Shown here piece by piece: positions 28,592 through 39,308 of a DNA stretch of 46,920 bases (position 1 is its first letter; each line of letters opens with the position of its first letter). Both the position numbers and the translations under genes were made by a program. The notes under the pieces are model-generated. The model saw only the letters and a list, made by a program, of their open reading frames with translations. It ran no database searches and was not told the origin of the DNA. Source of the DNA: an uncultured SAR116 cluster alpha proteobacterium (GTDB lineage: Bacteria > Pseudomonadota > Alphaproteobacteria > Puniceispirillales > Marisalimonadaceae). The stretch lies in contig CACBXG010000003.1 in assembly GCA_902543145.1 (NCBI GenBank), positions 155,088-202,007 on the forward strand. The letters run 5' to 3'.

Positions 28592-29530
28592 TTATGGTTT
28601 TGCAAAAGTTTCTACTTTTGTGATCTTTTTTATAATTCCTTTTCTTTTAAGGAAATTACTAAAATTTAAATAAGTTTTTAAATCATGTGCTTGTGGTCTT
28701 AGAGCAAACCTAGATATAGTATCTTTATAAGCTCTTTTATTTAATTCATCATTTAAACCTTTTTTGTAAGAAGAAAAGTCTTTCCATGTAGAAACTGGGT
28801 CATTTATAATTGTTAAAGTGGCTTTCTGGATTGCACTAAAAAACTTATCGAAAAGTGGGTTGTTTTTATTTTTTTTATTTGCAATATATATTAGTTCTTC
28901 ATAAGTAGGTACGCCGTGCTCTTCGGGATAGAAAGCTCTACCTGGGTGATTAACAATGTCCATTTGATTGAGCTCAAAATTCCTAAAAGCTCCAATTACT
29001 GCGTCAACTTTCTTTGCAATTAATGAGGGTGATAATGAAAAGTTAATATTCACTAAATCTACATCAGACATATTTAGGTTATATTTTTGAAGCATTCCAG
29101 ATAGTAGAGCCTCTTCAAATCCACCAACTGAAAATCCAACTTTTTTTCCTTTAAGATCTGAAATTGTTCTAATAGGCCCGTCTTTTAATACAACTAGGGA
29201 ATTTAAAGGAACACTTACTAATGTTCCTACTCTTACAACTGGTAATCCTTGATCAACTTGAATATGTAGTTGTGGTTGATATGAAATTGCTAAGTCTAAT
29301 TTACCAGCTGCAACTAATTTTGGAGGATCATTTGGATCAGCAGGCTCGATCATCTCAACTTCAAGGTTAAGGTCTTTAAAAAAATTTCTTTTTTTAGCTA
29401 TTATTAGGGGAGCATGATCAGGGTTTATAAACCAATCAAGTCCTATGGTTAATTTTTCAGATGAAGCTTTAACATTACTAGTGAAAGTTAATAGCAAGGT
29501 ACTTAAAAGTATTTTAAAAATTATTTTCAT
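28592..29530 (-). CDS. thiY: ThiY-like periplasmic binding protein for thiamine pyrimidine precursor
   Basis: Substrate-binding protein of an ABC importer for formyl-aminopyrimidine or a related HMP precursor. 312 residues: Sec signal peptide (1 to about 22, 'KASS'), then the NMT1/THI5-like fold opening 'LTIGLDWFINPDHAPLIIA', with 'PADPNDPPKLVAAGKLDLAI' region and 'GTLVSVPLNSLVVL' being typical of ThiY. The TPP riboswitch directly before it confirms the thiamine link. Its Shine-Dalgarno (GGGAG on the minus strand, 29541-29537) is inside the aptamer's 3' side. The ABC ATPase (thiZ) is not in the window. Confidence 0.88.
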   Translation of the reverse strand: MKIIFKILLSTLLLTFTSNVKASSEKLTIGLDWFINPDHAPLIIAKKRNFFKDLNLEVEMIEPADPNDPPKLVAAGKLDLAISYQPQLHIQVDQGLPVVRVGTLVSVPLNSLVVLKDGPIRTISDLKGKKVGFSVGGFEEALLSGMLQKYNLNMSDVDLVNINFSLSPSLIAKKVDAVIGAFRNFELNQMDIVNHPGRAFYPEEHGVPTYEELIYIANKKNKNNPLFDKFFSAIQKATLTIINDPVSTWKDFSSYKKGLNDELNKRAYKDTISRFALRPQAHDLKTYLNFSNFLKRKGIIKKITKVETFAKP

Positions 29531-29614
29531 TTGCGTCTCCCTGCGCTGGTTTTAACCAGATCAGGTTATAAGGGTTAATTTCTCAGCTAGACTAATGTCA
29601 CGCACCCCTGGCAA
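29531..29614 (-). promoter_or_regulatory. TPP (thi-box) riboswitch controlling thiY
   Basis: On the minus strand the aptamer shows GGGGTGCG near the 5' end, CTGAGA, ACCCTT, ACCTGATCTGG, then a TGGTT/AACCA hairpin and GCGCAGGGAG: all the conserved THI-element blocks in order. Closing helix P1 can form from TTGC (29614-29611) and GCAA (29534-29531), the latter touching the ATG. The Shine-Dalgarno GGGAG lies between them, so TPP binding would hide the ribosome-binding site; regulation is probably translational. No terminator hairpin exists between aptamer and start codon. Confidence 0.93.
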
Positions 29615-29656
29615 TTTACTTCTATTGCAAATAATATAAATAAAATCAATAATAAT

Positions 29657-32085: not shown

Positions 32086-32162
<77 letters not shown>

Positions 32163-32186: not shown

Positions 32187-33053
32187 TTAGGCCATCATAG
32201 GTTCTTGGTCACCAACTAAGGTAACTCTATGCATAATCCTTTTGATAGTATTGTTATCAAAAGGTTCAACTGAATGCATTGTGCATCTATTATCCCACAT
32301 CACAATGTCATCATTATTCCAAATATGTTTGTAAACATATTTAGATTGAATTGAATGTTCTATTAAGAAATCAAGCAATTCTCTTCCTGCACTATCATCA
32401 TAATCAACAATTTTTACCATCGTATGTGGTGATAAAAAGAGACTAGATTTCTTGGTTGAAGGATGTTTCCTTACCAAAGGATGAATAACAGGATCGAGTT
32501 TATCATAATTGCCTTTGTTTTTTCTTTTGTTAAGTTCGTCAGACAAACTTATTATAAAGTCGTGATCGTGTACCACATTTAAGCTTTTTATTTTCTGTTT
32601 CATCGACTCTTCTAGGTCATCATAAGCTTTATACATATTTGCAAATAGAGTGTTTCCTCCTTTATTTGTGGTAGAAATACCATGAAGAATAGATCCATTA
32701 CTTGGTATTTTTCGAAATGAACTATCAGTATGCCAAAGCCAGGATTGTTTCAAATATTGCCAAGAGGTTTCTTTGTTAGGAATAATTTTACCATTTTCAT
32801 CAACATTTGAAACTCTATAAATTTCAGGATTTCTTGATGATCTATGAGATAAGGAAGGATGAACTTCTAGTTCACCAAATCTTTTCCCAAATTCAATATG
32901 AACTTCATCAGAAATATTTTGATTGGGAAATACAATAACTAAATATTCAAGCCATAATTTTTTTATTTTTTGAAAAGTATCACTATCTAAATTTGAAAGA
33001 TCAATACCTTCAATTGAAACTCCTATATTCTCATGTAATTTTTTTACAATCAT
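32187..33053 (-). CDS. TauD/TfdA family Fe(II)/2-oxoglutarate dioxygenase
   Basis: 288-residue oxygenase that hydroxylates a substrate while decarboxylating 2-oxoglutarate. The iron facial triad is H108, D110 ('WHTDSSF') and H260 ('TMHSVEPF'); R276 ('MHRVTL') is the 2-oxoglutarate anchor. Overall shape resembles TfdA/TauD enzymes that open sulfonates, aryloxy acids or carnitine-type compounds. It is a single gene convergent with the tRNA. Given sulfonate-type genes elsewhere in the window a sulfonate is tempting, but there is no direct support. Confidence 0.85.
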   Translation of the reverse strand: MIVKKLHENIGVSIEGIDLSNLDSDTFQKIKKLWLEYLVIVFPNQNISDEVHIEFGKRFGELEVHPSLSHRSSRNPEIYRVSNVDENGKIIPNKETSWQYLKQSWLWHTDSSFRKIPSNGSILHGISTTNKGGNTLFANMYKAYDDLEESMKQKIKSLNVVHDHDFIISLSDELNKRKNKGNYDKLDPVIHPLVRKHPSTKKSSLFLSPHTMVKIVDYDDSAGRELLDFLIEHSIQSKYVYKHIWNNDDIVMWDNRCTMHSVEPFDNNTIKRIMHRVTLVGDQEPMMA

Positions 33054-33087
33054 AATAAAAACTACTTTGATGTGATATTAAAATATT

Positions 33088-33840
33088 TTATTTCAATTTA
33101 ATTAGTAGATCTGCAGTACGTCTCTGGTTTGCTACAACACGTTCGCGATCTGCTTGTATGCGTTCACGTCGTTTAGCAATGTCATCACCAAGTTCTAATA
33201 TGCCTTTTGTGTCGTTCTCGACACGATTTACCAAATCATTAGCGTCTTTCTCTGCTATATTTGCTCTTTCTAGTAGTTTGTCTAATCGCTCGGTATTAGA
33301 TTTTACAAATTGTGCATTTGCATTTGAAGTTGCCTTTCTCATTTGCTTAGCAATAGATCCATCAGCCCAGTCAGCATTTTCAGAAATCATGGTATCACCT
33401 TGTTCAACCACTGATTCATTTGCTTCAGTAATCAAACTGTTAACAGACTGCAACATCTGATTTACTTCAATCATTTTTGTAGCAATGTCGCGCAGAGTAT
33501 CATTGAGGTCAGTACGGTTTTCAAGTTGTTCAATCCTAACTTGATTTGACATTCTAACCTTGAAATTATTTTGAACATCAGATGAAGGTTCTAGTGCTTC
33601 AAGCATTGCCATTCGACAGCCATACAGATCATTGACATTGTCAATTGCTATTGATCTATTACCCATAAAAGCAGAAGTAAAGTTTCTTTGTAGCAACGAA
33701 CGATTTTCTTCAATATCAGCCAGTAAAAGCATGAGTTCAGCGTATGTCGTAGACACTTCTGCATCCAGCTCAAAAATCCTACGTCTGTTCTTACGAATAT
33801 TTGTTTTATTTTCAGATATTAAATCAGTTTTTTTTGCCAT
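33088..33840 (-). CDS. Coiled-coil protein of the DUF1538/P-II operon
   Basis: 250 residues, hydrophilic and almost wholly helical, with several heptad-like stretches (about 5-50, 95-150 and 175-245) and many charged residues; no signal peptide or membrane segment. A conserved-looking middle is 'GNRSIAIDNVNDLYGCRMAMLEAL'-like (split by polar turns). It starts four bases after the second P-II-like gene and closes the operon. I do not recognise a family. A structural or adaptor role with the transporter and its P-II-like regulators is an inference. Its G+C is clearly above the flanks. Confidence 0.65.
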   Translation of the reverse strand: MAKKTDLISENKTNIRKNRRRIFELDAEVSTTYAELMLLLADIEENRSLLQRNFTSAFMGNRSIAIDNVNDLYGCRMAMLEALEPSSDVQNNFKVRMSNQVRIEQLENRTDLNDTLRDIATKMIEVNQMLQSVNSLITEANESVVEQGDTMISENADWADGSIAKQMRKATSNANAQFVKSNTERLDKLLERANIAEKDANDLVNRVENDTKGILELGDDIAKRRERIQADRERVVANQRRTADLLIKLK

Positions 33841-33844
33841 GGTT

Positions 33845-34237
33845 TCACCTATAATTCTGTATTTCCTCTAACTCTGTGTGATCATCATCCTGAAGTTCAT
33901 GTGTAGTGGATTTCTTTAGTTTGTTCATATAGATTATCCCTTTATTCGGCTCTGATAAGTCACAGAAGCGATAAATAAAATCAAATATATTCTCAGCTTG
34001 GTCAGCTGTTACTACAACATGGAATTGTTCTACATCAAAAGAACCTGAAACACCTGCAACAGTTTTTTGCCCGATCATTGTGCCAGCCACGTTATAAAAG
34101 TAAACTTCATTTATATTACGTTTCATTAGCTCAGGGATTAACTTGTCTGTCCCACCTTCATACAATATACCTGAAATTAACCAAGTGTAATCAAGATAGT
34201 TAACCCTAGGATCTGTTTTTATTTCAGGAAAAACCAT
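33845..34237 (-). CDS. Second P-II-like regulatory protein
   Basis: 130 residues. The core shows a beta-alpha-beta repeat as in P-II-like proteins: 'YTWLISGILYEG', helix 'GTDKLIPELMKRNI', 'EVYFYNVAGTMIG' leading into a T-loop-like turn, then 'QFHVVVTADQAENIFDFIYRF' and 'KGIIYMNKL'. The acidic C-terminal tail (TTHELQDDDHTELEE) is extra. It is weakly similar to the preceding P-II-like protein and begins one base after its stop. Classical nucleotide- and uridylylation-site residues are not evident. Confidence 0.6.
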   Translation of the reverse strand: MVFPEIKTDPRVNYLDYTWLISGILYEGGTDKLIPELMKRNINEVYFYNVAGTMIGQKTVAGVSGSFDVEQFHVVVTADQAENIFDFIYRFCDLSEPNKGIIYMNKLKKSTTHELQDDDHTELEEIQNYR

Positions 34238-34238
34238 C

Positions 34239-34598
34239 TTACGAACCTACATATTTAGATAAAATGGAAGGTGGAACGTAGGTGGCAGCCTGCATTAGAG
34301 GAGTGGCGTACATGAAGCCCATACCTGGCGTATCCAACTTTCCAGCTAAAAACATTCGTTCAAAAACTCTATCTACTTCATCACTTGAAACCATCACATT
34401 GACGACATCTCTTTCGGCATCTACAGCAACACCTAAAGCCCCTAATCTTTCGCGAATTCCAACACCCATTGCGCCATGCACGGTTGATCCTTGAATTCCT
34501 ACCTCCAGTAAAGCGTCAGTGATGATTTCCCCATAACCATGTTGAACAACTGCAGTAATTAGTGTTGCTTCAGTTAATGTGGTAAATGAACGTTTCAT
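34239..34598 (-). CDS. P-II family regulatory protein
   Basis: 119 residues with the layout of GlnB/GlnK-like proteins: first strand and helix 'ATLITAVVQHGYGEIITDALLEVG', a T-loop-like region with 'GSTVHGAMGVGIRERLG', then 'DVVNVMVSSDEVDRVFERMF' and a final 'GMGFMYATPL'. The uridylylated Tyr of GlnB is absent. P-II proteins are trimers that sense nucleotides and bind a target; here the target is very likely the DUF1538 membrane protein, whose gene overlaps this one by four bases (ATGA). Confidence 0.72.
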   Translation of the reverse strand: MKRSFTTLTEATLITAVVQHGYGEIITDALLEVGIQGSTVHGAMGVGIRERLGALGVAVDAERDVVNVMVSSDEVDRVFERMFLAGKLDTPGMGFMYATPLMQAATYVPPSILSKYVGS

Positions 34599-36385
34599 TT
34601 TGTTTCTCCTTCAAGAGTAAGCTCACGAGCAACGCGTCGCTCCTCACGTTTTACTTTAAATTGTACATAAATACCAAGTGTCAAAACTGCGACAATAGGG
34701 CAAATTGATGCCGCAGCCAAAATTCCAAATCCATCTGTTGAACCAAGCGCATTTCCAAATCCTAGACCCATCGCAAGCACTAATGGAACAGTTACAGGCC
34801 CAGTAGTCACACCTGCAGAGTCCCAACCAACATTGACGAATTCTTCAGTCGATAAAAGAGTTAATATCAATCCGAGGGTGTAGCCAGGTATTAAAATATA
34901 CATTATATGAAACCCATATATAAGCTTTAAAACACCTAGCATAATTCCAGTACCTACACCAAATGCGACAGCTATCATTAACATGGATTTTTTAAATGCA
35001 CCGTTTGTTAAATTTTGCACAGTCATCCCAAGGGCATTCAGAGCAGGCTCTGCAAGAGTGGCTGAAAGACCAAGAACCCAAGCAAACAAACCCGCAATCC
35101 CGACACCTACAGTCATGCTATAAAGCGGACTTGCTTTAATTGCATCAATTGATGTAAAAGCACCTGCAATCAATCCGCCCGATTGATCTCCGAGTTTCGC
35201 TAAACCGTAGGTTAAACCAACATTAAAAATACACATTCCAACGACTGCTAGTATAATTCCATAGTAGGTGATGAAGGCATTTTTCAACTTTTCTCGCAAA
35301 ATTACTAATAGCACCACTGCTAAGAATATCACCAATGGTACAATGGCTCGCACACCTAAAATCACTTCTGTCCAAGGGGTAACTTCATACCATTGTGGCT
35401 GAGAGGTTGCAGTCTGAGCGGCTAATTTTATTTCAGCTGCCTTTTCGATAATCAGTTCAGCAGGAACTGTGTAAGCAGTATAAAAGCTTAGTATCAAGAC
35501 GCCCATGATTGGGAATACTGATGCCAATGTCACAATACCAAACCCGGATAATGAAGAATCTGCACCTTTACCAGCTGCTGCAGCCACACCAATACCAAGT
35601 GCAAGGACTAATGGTACTGTTACTGGACCAGTTGTAACTGCCCCACAATCCCAAGCTAAACCAACAATTTTAGTTAATTCAGGGTCCATGAAAGCAATAA
35701 TACTCAAAATTAAAGTAGGGGTAACGCTCATAAAAATCATTGGCTTTAAGCTCCAGCCACGTAAGAACCTTACTGTCCCCAAAACAGCTGCTAAACCAAC
35801 GCCAAGTCCAACTAGTAAAACAGTTGCACCAGAACGATCATTTAGTAGTGTAAATAAATAAGGTGCTTGTTCTGGATTGACAATTGATCCAGCTACCTGT
35901 AGTGCGCCAATTGCTGGCTCGGCAAATGTTACACCTATCCCTAACAGAAATGCGATAAATAGTACGCCAGCCAATGGTAATTTACGAGGTAGAGTGTTAC
36001 CAATTATCTCACCGAAAGGCATAAGCCCAAGCTTCAGGCCCTCCATAAACATCATCAAGCCAATCATAACAGCAAATAATCCGCCTGCAATTATACTTGC
36101 GTCCATAACAGGTGTTTGAAGAACTAAATATTGGAAAAGTGCCAAATAAATTGCCAGTGGAACAACTGCACGTGCCTGATCAATAAATCGTGTGGACAAA
36201 TATGGTTGCAGAATTTTAAATATATCACCACCGCCCAATTTCATTTTTGGTACAGGTTGTGGATGTTCATTACCATGACGATCAAACAATGGTTCTGGCA
36301 TTAATTCTTGATATGGAATTTTTTGACTGTCGATTGACATTGCTTGTATGTAATCACCAAATCTTATGGTTTTGCGTCGTGCCAT
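34595..36385 (-). CDS. DUF1538 membrane protein with internal duplication, probable transporter or channel
   Basis: 596 residues: soluble N-terminus (1 to about 65), then about 12-14 membrane helices in two homologous halves, then a basic tail. The repeats share AEPA at 155-158 and 445-448, 'WDCGAV'/'WDSAGV' at 245 and 521, and the identical 12 residues TTGPVTVPLVLA at 251-262 and 527-538, followed by GFGI at 281 and 552. This matches DUF1538 (two copies). The paired glycine/proline-rich motifs could form the central pathway of a transporter. An AAGGAT Shine-Dalgarno precedes the ATG by 5 bases. First gene of the four-gene operon; substrate unknown. Confidence 0.8.
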   Translation of the reverse strand: MARRKTIRFGDYIQAMSIDSQKIPYQELMPEPLFDRHGNEHPQPVPKMKLGGGDIFKILQPYLSTRFIDQARAVVPLAIYLALFQYLVLQTPVMDASIIAGGLFAVMIGLMMFMEGLKLGLMPFGEIIGNTLPRKLPLAGVLFIAFLLGIGVTFAEPAIGALQVAGSIVNPEQAPYLFTLLNDRSGATVLLVGLGVGLAAVLGTVRFLRGWSLKPMIFMSVTPTLILSIIAFMDPELTKIVGLAWDCGAVTTGPVTVPLVLALGIGVAAAAGKGADSSLSGFGIVTLASVFPIMGVLILSFYTAYTVPAELIIEKAAEIKLAAQTATSQPQWYEVTPWTEVILGVRAIVPLVIFLAVVLLVILREKLKNAFITYYGIILAVVGMCIFNVGLTYGLAKLGDQSGGLIAGAFTSIDAIKASPLYSMTVGVGIAGLFAWVLGLSATLAEPALNALGMTVQNLTNGAFKKSMLMIAVAFGVGTGIMLGVLKLIYGFHIMYILIPGYTLGLILTLLSTEEFVNVGWDSAGVTTGPVTVPLVLAMGLGFGNALGSTDGFGILAAASICPIVAVLTLGIYVQFKVKREERRVARELTLEGETK

Positions 36386-36414
36386 AATTGATCCTTACAA
36401 TAAATTAATATGTA

Positions 36415-36443
36415 TAAATAACTGTAATAAATTACTAAATCAA
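36415..36443 (-). promoter_or_regulatory. Possible promoter of the DUF1538/P-II operon
   Basis: On the minus strand TTGATT (36443-36438) and TATTTA (36420-36415) are separated by 17 bases, giving a transcript start near 36408 and a leader of about 23 bases. In such A/T-rich DNA chance matches are common. The rest of the 170-base gap (36386-36556) shows no hairpin, repeat or extra reading frame. Confidence 0.35.
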
Positions 36444-36556
36444 TAAATTTTATTTCAGAATGTACAAATGTAAACTTTTAGTCTTATAAATTTTAAATAA
36501 ATGATTTTAAATTTTATAGCTATAAATCAATTAGTAACTTAAAGTTAAGATAGATG

Positions 36557-37330
36557 TTATGTTTTCCATTTGGGTTCTCTTTTTTCCAAAAAGGCTTTCA
36601 AACCTTCCTGAGCATCCGGGGTTGTTGCAGCATTACAAAAATCTTCAACTGCATTAGCAACACCTCTTCTGTAATCAAGATCATTAGTTCTTAAAAAGGC
36701 TGCTCTTCCTAAATTCATAGATATCGGTGATTTTTTTGATAAGTTCATTGCTATTTCATTAGCTTTTTCTCTAATTTCATTTGATAAAACTTTCCGACTA
36801 ATTAATCCTAACATAAGCGCTTCATCAGAGTAAAATGTTCTACCGCTAAATAATAAATCAAATGCTTTATATCTTCCGATAATTCTTGGAAGATGTGTGA
36901 AATGGATTGCAGGTAACAATCCTAAGTCAATTTCTGGATATCCAAATGAAGCTTTTTCTGATGCAATAATTATATCACATGATATAGCTAGAGTCATGCC
37001 TCCACCTCTTGCGGCTCCGTTAATTGATGCTATTGTAGGTTTTCCCATGTTATATTGAATATCCCAAAGATCTATGTAGAGGCGTTTTAAAAACTCTCTA
37101 ATTTCTAATCCTGACTTATTTATTAAAAGATTTAAATCTAGACCTGCAGAAAATATCCCTTTGACGTCACTTTCTAAAATAATAGCTCTTACCTCTTTAT
37201 CTTTAGAGGCAATTTTAAGTGTGTGTAAAATATCATCTAAAAAATCGATGCTAAACGCGTTGGAAGGATTACGTTTAAGTGTTATCCACGCAATGTAATC
37301 TATAACTTTATATTCAATCAATTTATCCAT
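36557..37330 (-). CDS. Enoyl-CoA hydratase/isomerase (crotonase) family protein
   Basis: 257-residue CoA-binding enzyme of the crotonase fold. The oxyanion-hole segments are 'IFSAGLDLN' and 'GAARGGGMTLAISCDI'. In true enoyl-CoA hydratases one catalytic Glu follows GGG(C)E; here that position is Thr. The second Glu is kept in 'YPEIDLGLLP'. One-Glu arrangements are found in delta3-delta2 enoyl-CoA isomerases, so isomerase or another crotonase reaction is more likely than hydratase. The gene stands alone, divergent from the predicted glycosyltransferase (145 bases between starts). Confidence 0.82.
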   Translation of the reverse strand: MDKLIEYKVIDYIAWITLKRNPSNAFSIDFLDDILHTLKIASKDKEVRAIILESDVKGIFSAGLDLNLLINKSGLEIREFLKRLYIDLWDIQYNMGKPTIASINGAARGGGMTLAISCDIIIASEKASFGYPEIDLGLLPAIHFTHLPRIIGRYKAFDLLFSGRTFYSDEALMLGLISRKVLSNEIREKANEIAMNLSKKSPISMNLGRAAFLRTNDLDYRRGVANAVEDFCNAATTPDAQEGLKAFLEKREPKWKT

Positions 37331-37475: not shown

Positions 37476-39308
37476 ATGCAACAATTAGATTACTTTGAAA
37501 AGATACTAAAAAACATTGTTTCTGATAAAGATTTATTAAATTTATCATTAAAAAATTCTAGTGATAGCTTTTCTAAGCTTTGTAGAGCTTTTATTATTAA
37601 GTTTTACAATGAAAATAAAGATTTCAATGAATCTATGTCTTTATTAAATTCTCTTAAGGATGAAACTTGCTTGAGGCTTTTTGATGAATTTTTTAATTCA
37701 CAATCACAAAATATTACATTTAATTACGATAGAAAATACAATGATCACATTTGGGATATTTTTTGTCCAGAGGCTCTTGAGTCTTATAATAAACCTGAAG
37801 AAATAAAGAATAAAATATTAAGAAAAAGAAAACTGACTAATCTCAAAGAGAGTAAAAATCACCTTACAAACCCAGCTAAAGAGATACTTTTTTTAAGCAA
37901 TGTTTTAATCACAACACCAATTGATTATTTTTCACCAAACATACCAATTGAAATTAAAGATGAATTACAAAAATTTAAGAATGTAAGACAAAACTATTGG
38001 TATGATCATCCAATACCTTTGGATGCAACAGTAAATGAAAATGAAATAATTTATGGATTAAAAAATCTTGATGAAGCAATTGCTTACGAAGCACAAAGGA
38101 ATAACCTAAAAATTTCAGATAAAATCAAACTAGTTCTATCTGTTTCCGTCACACATAATGGTCTGGAAAAAATTGCGCTAGAATATGTTAAATTAATTAT
38201 TAAGAAATCTTTAAATTTAAAATTTATTGAAGTCTATCTCTTTGATGAGGATATTTGTAATAAAATTTACTCAACAATATTTCAAAAAAATCACAAATTT
38301 AACAATTTATTAGGAGTCAATGGAAATTATGGTCGACATTACACCTTTTTAAAATACATCTTATTAATTTATAATAAGGTAATTAAATCAGATTTTAGAT
38401 ATAGTTTTAAGATTGATTTAGATCAAGTTTTTGATCAGAAGATGTTATTAAAAAATACTAGTTCTTCAATATTTGAAATTTTTAAAAATCAAAAATTTTG
38501 GGGAGGTACTGCAACTGATTTCGAAGGAAAAAAAGTTGATTTAGGCTTGCTGGCTGGAGCATTAGTAAATAAGAATGATATCTCCAAAGATTTGTTTACA
38601 CCAGACGTTCAAAGACCAAAGATAAACAATTTTGCATCTGATTTATCATCCAAAAGAATTTTTTGTCCTGAATGGCCACAATCATTGTCAACAGAAGCAG
38701 AATTAATGTACAAATCAAACGATATCCAAAGAATACATGTAACTGGTGGCACTACAGGAATAACATTAGAAAGTTTAAAAAAATGGGCTCCATTTACGCC
38801 TAGTTTTGTTAATAGAGCGGAAGATCAAGCTTTTGTTATTTCATCTATTAATAAAAACGAATATCTGAGTCATTGTCACGCCAAAAACTTGATCATGAGA
38901 CATGATAAACATGCATTTGCTCAAAAAAGTATAGAAATGTCCAAGTTTGGAAAAGAAATAGGAAATTTAGAAAGAATATTAGTATTTAGTAATTATTTTG
39001 AAGCGCATGAACTTGATTTTAAAATTTTAAAAGAACATTTCTGGCCATTTACATCAGTCTTTTCTACTGAGCATGCTGAATTCCTTGTAGGATTAATATT
39101 TTTAATTGATGGGTGTTTTAATGGTGAAGAATATGTTAGTTTAGGTGCAAAAAGGTTGTTGGATACTCAAAAATTTTGCAAAACAAAATTAAATGCTCAA
39201 TACAAAACTGAAAAACGATTTTGGCGAGAGTTTGTAGATCGATTAGAGTTATTTGATGATAAAAATCATGTGTTAAAATCAATAATAAATTCAACTAAAA
39301 TATTATGA
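37476..39308 (+). CDS. Large uncharacterised protein with a glycosyltransferase-like (GT-A) domain
   Basis: 610 soluble residues. The N-terminal 200 are unrecognised and helical. From about 225 the pattern recalls GT-A folds: strand 'KLVLSVSVTHNG', helix, then 'YSFKIDLDQVFD' with D314-L-D316 as a possible metal/nucleotide-sugar DxD, 'FWGGTATDF', and 'NRAEDQAF' (E449-D450), where an ED pair often gives the acceptor base, followed by 'MRHDKHAF' (His as late metal ligand). No membrane helix. It is a single gene between divergent and convergent neighbours, with no sugar-synthesis genes around. Alternative: the DxD is coincidental. Confidence 0.5.
   Translation: MQQLDYFEKILKNIVSDKDLLNLSLKNSSDSFSKLCRAFIIKFYNENKDFNESMSLLNSLKDETCLRLFDEFFNSQSQNITFNYDRKYNDHIWDIFCPEALESYNKPEEIKNKILRKRKLTNLKESKNHLTNPAKEILFLSNVLITTPIDYFSPNIPIEIKDELQKFKNVRQNYWYDHPIPLDATVNENEIIYGLKNLDEAIAYEAQRNNLKISDKIKLVLSVSVTHNGLEKIALEYVKLIIKKSLNLKFIEVYLFDEDICNKIYSTIFQKNHKFNNLLGVNGNYGRHYTFLKYILLIYNKVIKSDFRYSFKIDLDQVFDQKMLLKNTSSSIFEIFKNQKFWGGTATDFEGKKVDLGLLAGALVNKNDISKDLFTPDVQRPKINNFASDLSSKRIFCPEWPQSLSTEAELMYKSNDIQRIHVTGGTTGITLESLKKWAPFTPSFVNRAEDQAFVISSINKNEYLSHCHAKNLIMRHDKHAFAQKSIEMSKFGKEIGNLERILVFSNYFEAHELDFKILKEHFWPFTSVFSTEHAEFLVGLIFLIDGCFNGEEYVSLGAKRLLDTQKFCKTKLNAQYKTEKRFWREFVDRLELFDDKNHVLKSIINSTKIL

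Follow-up and report, generated by a model that had tools for sequence, protein, structure and literature searches.

A fused DUF1538 membrane protein and its P-II-type neighbours in a SAR116-cluster genome

Why should a membrane protein be encoded together with two unlike P-II proteins? The question is raised by a four-gene, minus-strand unit at positions 33088-36385 of a 46,920-nucleotide stretch of DNA (the window, contig CACBXG010000003.1) from an uncultured alphaproteobacterium whose closest named genomes are SAR116-cluster records. We propose that its products are a transporter resembling monovalent cation/H+ antiporters, in which a UmpA-like and a UmpB-like half are fused, and dedicated, probably two-component P-II regulators; judging from gene order and sequence resemblance, we put the probability of this reading at about 0.6. 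The open reading frame (ORF) coordinates agree with the tight packing described in an earlier, sequence-only reading of the window (the original prediction): the genes for the DUF1538 protein and PIIa overlap by 4 bases, and gaps of 1 and 4 bases separate PIIa from PIIb and PIIb from the coiled-coil gene (CC). The features discussed here are as follows.

34595-36385, minus strand: DUF1538-DUF1538 membrane protein, 596 amino acids (ORF list, Pfam, NCBIfam)
34239-34598, minus strand: PIIa, P-II-type protein, 119 amino acids, with a short T-loop and without the canonical ligand residues (ORF, Pfam, alignment)
33845-34237, minus strand: PIIb, a second, divergent P-II-type protein, 130 amino acids (ORF, hhalign, predicted fold)
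33088-33840, minus strand: CC, coiled-coil protein by its heptad pattern, 250 amino acids, of no known family (ORF, heptads)
36386-36556, no strand: intergenic stretch 5' of the operon (Rfam, promoter-match scan)
33030-36563, no strand: approximate block missing from G033, a genome of the same genus (genome comparison)

Linkage of DUF1538 with P-II proteins

The pairing of DUF1538 with P-II is widespread in bacteria, and P-II is a near-constant partner. Seen from PIIa, all 36 named loci carry a fused DUF1538 gene directly upstream, either whole or cut by a contig end. A less biased view starts from DUF1538 itself, for which 136 genomes of the order, 289 of the class and 398 of the phylum (overlapping sets) gave matches in 32, 28 and 126 genomes, respectively. 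About 30 of the best-scoring matches per search were retained, a second search covered 20 genomes picked because their matches were weak, fused or multiple, wider stretches were added for some, and seven of nine plasmid matches were included. Merging loci with the same first 200 DUF1538 residues left 116, of which 113 have at least 450 bp of downstream flank, and at least one P-II domain lies directly downstream of DUF1538 in 107 of these 113. The neighbourhood that was originally described from one locus is thus a frequent one.

This arrangement holds for every one of the 48 fused genome loci, with two P-II ORFs in 44 and one in the remaining four (L196, L199, L204 and L205), and for all five clostridial plasmid loci, each with a single P-II ORF that contains two P-II domains in four cases and one in L179. 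Split umpA-umpB loci have a downstream P-II in 52 of 57 instances, one P-II per pair, and partial DUF1538 matches in two of three; the third, a 119-residue match in L093, is the sixth locus without one. The 70 wide loci (880 kb; PIIa- and DUF1538-derived) hold 130 P-II domains beside DUF1538 and none elsewhere. A 'P-II family nitrogen regulator' is annotated next to DUF1538 at all five annotated plasmid loci (of seven). The P-II models used were iterated from PIIa and PIIb and could drift; in a Pfam check nine of ten sampled partners scored over the P-II cut-off, and the tenth reached 23.4 bits. Named cases of the linkage come from the Alpha- and Gammaproteobacteria, Bdellovibrionota and Clostridia, and we found no description of it in a literature search outside which most subscription papers lie.

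A pair of P-II genes goes with the fused form of about 590 residues strongly but not strictly: L196 encodes a divergent protein of that length with one P-II, and for the fused gene of L198, which is among the 44, the second P-II may belong to a split neighbour. Two clostridial proteins (Paraclostridium and Peptoclostridium) contain two Pfam P-II stretches each and are encoded beside a fused DUF1538 of about 500 residues. Together with the 44 pairs, such two-domain proteins lend indirect support to the suggestion, made in the original prediction, of a heteromeric or two-component P-II. In one draft genome a UmpB-like DUF1538 and a P-II domain share a single 387-residue frame (L079:2173-3333; 217.7 and 30.2 bits), a single case.

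Genes for small proteins with a cyclic nucleotide monophosphate (cNMP)-binding domain (PF00027), at times two in succession, occur next to or close to the fused-DUF1538/two-P-II operon in one related group of genomes (L132, L133, L134, L137, L138, L142, L144 and L145). As a general fifth partner these genes were rejected, since they accompany 9 of the 17 two-P-II loci from one related group, none of the ten loci L186-L195, 2 of 30 marine loci and one of the six loci L062-L067.

The membrane protein and the two P-II-type proteins

The duplication originally proposed for the 596-residue protein is borne out by Pfam, in which DUF1538 (PF07556) matches two stretches with 330.9 bits against a cut-off of 22.6. 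Its N-terminal half (residues 66-300) is closest to UmpA (NCBIfam NF041627, 217.3 bits, cut-off 490) and its C-terminal half (residues 345-582) to UmpB (NF041628, 167.1 bits, cut-off 500). Each half keeps AEPA and WDxxxVTTGPVTVPLVLA motifs, and acidic residues in both halves (E156, E446, D246 and D522) are invariant in 21 sequences. The predicted model is all helix except for the N-terminus, and no PDB sequence relative was found at E 1.

DUF1538 was originally thought to have no assigned substrate, a view overtaken by work on Halomonas zhaodongensis, the main text of which reports that umpA and umpB together, not singly, confer salt tolerance on Escherichia coli KNabc (PMC5484666, Meng et al., 2017). 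UmpAB is a Na+(Li+,K+)/H+ antiporter: vesicles from umpAB-carrying E. coli KNabc show the activity, with K0.5 values of 0.26-0.46 mM; the main text of that paper does not mention P-II, PII, GlnK, GlnB or nitrogen (PMC5484666). A cation riboswitch might have given a further clue to the substrate, and Rfam gave no match at the operon or at 17 other DUF1538 loci. The only two Rfam matches of the window are a tRNA and a thiamine pyrophosphate (TPP) riboswitch, and promoter-like matches in the region number 27 versus 22.0 +/- 4.5 in shuffled sequences, i.e. no clear excess.

PIIa passes the Pfam P-II family (PF00543) narrowly, with 27.3 bits against a cut-off of 25, and each of the 22 sequences in its alignment gives a P-II match at E 0.1 or better. 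PIIb does not reach that cut-off and has no Pfam match at E 1. Comparison of its family with that of PIIa by hhalign nevertheless gives a probability of 98.7% (30 sequences), or 96.7% with the 17 near relatives alone (16 from the window and named marine loci, one from another genome), at 19% identity in the profile alignment. The predicted PIIb fold has the P-II order beta-alpha-beta-beta-alpha-beta, with a disordered T-loop region and a mean predicted local distance difference test (pLDDT) score of 63.9. The 50 PDB matches listed for the model are all named as P-II or GlnK proteins; the best has E 1.1e-4, and the TM-scores by query length are about 0.5. PIIb is on these grounds a P-II-like protein, with a predicted fold of modest confidence, and in the marine clade it carries N- and C-terminal extensions of its own. 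Two unlike P-II-type proteins are therefore recognizable as originally described, the 119-residue one by Pfam and the 130-residue one by profile comparison and predicted fold. In a profile comparison with PDB sequences the PIIb family matches chain H of entry 9p1x best, though weakly (E 0.003). Chains G and H of 9p1x are two different P-II family chains, in 6 and 12 copies, and the entry is a possible template for a mixed P-II.

Canonical P-II proteins have a T-loop tyrosine and residues that bind 2-oxoglutarate and ATP. The genome of the window has two further, strong-scoring P-II genes elsewhere on the contig (L147 and L148), and we took the canonical protein L147 as the reference for residue comparison. 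PIIa and PIIb lack its GRQKGHTELY T-loop, including the tyrosine, and its GDGKIFV and RIRTGE segments, and so do the other DUF1538-linked P-II proteins in the alignment. With the canonical ligand residues absent, textbook ATP/2-oxoglutarate sensing by PIIa and PIIb appears unlikely. Of the idea of a transporter with dedicated P-II proteins gated by nucleotide, the dedicated partnership is upheld by the 107 linked loci, while the nucleotide gating is weakened.

Movement of the unit and the coiled-coil gene

That the unit was gained (or lost) as one block, much as the original prediction had it, is supported by codon use, phylogeny, gene context and an empty site, and it was probably acquired from other bacteria. 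Relative to other genes of the window, codon use deviates with z-scores of 7.6 for CC, 3.5 for PIIb and 9.6 for the DUF1538 gene, compared with no more than 2.2 for the other genes tested; PIIa does not deviate (z 1.2), although its G+C content stands out. By this measure three of the four genes clearly differ from the rest of the window. The G+C contrast is likewise real, but it was overstated by the 43-48% first counted on four sample lines, since the DUF1538, PIIa, PIIb and CC genes have 41.0, 42.8, 34.9 and 36.5%, respectively, against 30.6 +/- 2.5% in 39 other genes.

Identity of the DUF1538 protein is 87-93% with copies from Gammaproteobacteria and only 53-57% with fused copies of the other type within its own order. 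A quick tree intermixes Alpha- and Gammaproteobacteria in the marine clade, with support from the Shimodaira-Hasegawa-like approximate likelihood-ratio test (SH-aLRT) only and several long branches. The SAR116 and gammaproteobacterial loci have the four genes in common, and among the top 25 clusters listed (in at least three loci) just one further family occurs on both sides, a 267-residue protein (L040, L044, L053, L058 and L061) that in L040 lies several kb away. In G033, ECH and TauD, the genes that flank the operon, lie next to each other; the DNA on both sides is about 89% identical and the operon is absent. Other members of the genus have different genes here, and the site is thus a variable one that does not by itself decide between gain and loss. 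Around the unit, a search for the terminal repeats of a mobile element gave only short two-copy matches.

It is improbable, in our judgement, that the contrast in composition reflects high expression or membrane-protein composition in a unit ancestral to the genus. In favour of it, deviant codon use is also seen in genes with high expression, the empty site fits loss as well as gain, near kin have the same synteny and PIIa has normal codon use. The deviation of synonymous codon use in the other three genes argues the other way, as do the closeness to Gammaproteobacteria rather than to other fused copies of the same order and the mixing of the two classes in the tree.

CC is next after PIIb in all 30 marine loci L032-L061 (broken in L047 and cut by the contig end in L057), and all four genes are present, at least partly, in each of the 30. 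Of the 44 genome loci with two P-II ORFs, 13 include CC, and none was found next to the operon in L062-L067. CC-like matches occur in 25 of 136 genomes of the order, the weaker ones away from any DUF1538 operon, and in the phylum search the genome of the window is the sole match among 398. CC is accordingly a lineage-specific addition from a small family and not a core part: as a neighbour of DUF1538 it holds up in the marine subclade, but it is not general and its family also occurs away from the operon. Distant stand-alone relatives in other genomes of the order (L207-L214) share an SxFxGNR-like motif; among these eight regions a cNMP-binding gene lies within the stretch in L209 and L211 (near copies) and L212, and an ion-channel gene in L210.

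The family of CC could not be named: there is no Pfam match over cut-off and no consistent family across 20 members (best E 0.0006), NCBIfam gives only E 0.9, PADLOC gives no match, and PDB sequences give only weak coiled-coil matches. The best of these, 2wpq (E 0.009), and a conserved asparagine every seven residues prompted the idea of a trimeric coiled coil. Asparagine at heptad position d is a feature of trimeric adhesin stalks; the register of CC puts the core elsewhere and the asparagine at e, and the idea was dropped. In L047, a Planktomarina metagenome-assembled genome, DUF1538 and CC matches are in pieces across frames and both P-II genes are whole, through either decay or assembly error.

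Some other features of the window lie around the variable site or further off. A tRNA-Pro (TGG) gene at 32086-32162 (plus strand) lies near the site, variable in this genus, that the operon occupies. The 610-residue protein encoded at 37476-39308 (plus strand), where the window is richest in A+T, has no Pfam match at E 1. Its gene, too, is absent from between the neighbouring genes in G033 (L215), which makes it a second variable gene at the site. The TPP riboswitch (29521-29619, minus strand) is just 5' of a minus-strand gene at 28592-29530.

Proposed mechanism and its alternatives

We suggest that the fused DUF1538 protein would exchange monovalent cations for protons, and that a mixed P-II assembly of PIIa and PIIb may bind the antiporter from the cytosol and switch it on or off according to a small ligand other than the ATP/2-oxoglutarate pair. 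The P-II part would be a modulator, perhaps an inhibitor, and not a required subunit, because E. coli vesicles show antiport with umpAB alone. CC, originally suggested to be an adaptor, would be an extra partner added in one marine lineage, and the unit would have spread as one block among marine Alpha- and Gammaproteobacteria.

Known systems offer partial parallels. SbtB is a P-II-like protein on the bicarbonate transporter SbtA and is a single homotrimer; by description it resembles our case as a dedicated, non-canonical P-II-like partner of a transporter, and the transporter is a different one. In GlnK-AmtB the P-II gene is linked to an ammonium channel gene and the P-II protein docks on the channel (PMC3831643). 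The linkage of a P-II-type gene with a membrane transporter gene is common to both, whereas the transporter family differs, the P-II proteins of the window lack the canonical T-loop and ligand segments, and there are two unlike P-II proteins instead of one. NifI1 and NifI2, two P-II-type proteins described in the same source as acting together on nitrogenase (PMC3831643), are a parallel for PIIa and PIIb in being two unlike proteins of P-II type, reported to function in a joint complex as PIIa and PIIb may do; their target is nitrogenase and not a transporter. UmpAB of H. zhaodongensis belongs to the same DUF1538 family, the N-terminal half of the window protein being nearest UmpA and the C-terminal half nearest UmpB, but is encoded by two separate genes, with no P-II in the main text of the paper (PMC5484666).

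Several observations weigh against our interpretation. The window protein is far under both the UmpA and UmpB equivalog cut-offs, which makes this a resemblance only, and its substrate may therefore differ. Confidence in the DUF1538 model is moderate (pLDDT 66.7) and Foldseek gave no PDB fold match better than E 0.15, which leaves an antiporter fold putative. Five of the 57 split loci (L150, L158, L198, L200 and L202) have no downstream P-II, that of L198 being just upstream of the split pair, and five fused loci (L179, L196, L199, L204 and L205) show a single P-II domain in the domain search. The loci are related to each other, many coming from one order, and the counts are not independent. 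Lastly, the interaction, transport and ligand roles of the DUF1538-linked P-II proteins are ones that we infer from sequence.

Some of these points would suit other accounts. That the fused clade of about 590 residues transports something else, such as bicarbonate or another anion, with P-II control as in SbtA-SbtB, is in our view doubtful. Scores under the equivalog cut-offs and the missing fold match are compatible with it, and fused copies alongside split umpAB in G426, G507, G519 and G526 suggest a different task; yet the UmpA-UmpB order is kept, the four invariant acidic residues suit a cation or proton carrier, and the sole measured relative found is an antiporter. A more serious contender, falling somewhat short of an even chance, is that PIIa and PIIb are separate homotrimers with separate signals, to which the low identity between the families and the terminal extensions of marine PIIb lend weight. 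The adjacency of the two genes in 44 of 48 fused genome loci, and the two P-II domains in one clostridial protein, speak instead for one mixed assembly. We think it unlikely that the P-II proteins control expression or another cellular target and sit with the antiporter through a common condition, without docking. Many P-II proteins do act on soluble enzymes or regulators. UmpAB works in E. coli without a P-II (PMC5484666). Downstream linkage in several phyla and the single DUF1538-P-II frame of L079 nonetheless point to direct contact.

Beyond the antiporter with its two-component regulators, we tentatively extend the proposal to the family as a whole, while holding it to be rather less probable in this general form. 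DUF1538 antiporters may in general be cation/H+ exchangers gated by P-II proteins, the split form by one P-II and the fused form by a heteromeric P-II, composed of two gene products or of two domains in a single protein; these P-II proteins would respond to a ligand other than ATP/2-oxoglutarate; a marine lineage would have added CC and passed the four-gene unit between classes. P-II proteins are known chiefly from the control of nitrogen and carbon. With a P-II as the constant neighbour of a cation/H+ antiporter family across several phyla, their range would widen to ion and pH homeostasis, and P-II signalling would, if this is true, reach the balance of Na+, K+ and pH. The linkage gives DUF1538 a testable regulator, and the idea of a heteromeric P-II becomes testable as well, both on the pair from the fused clade and on the clostridial protein with two domains.

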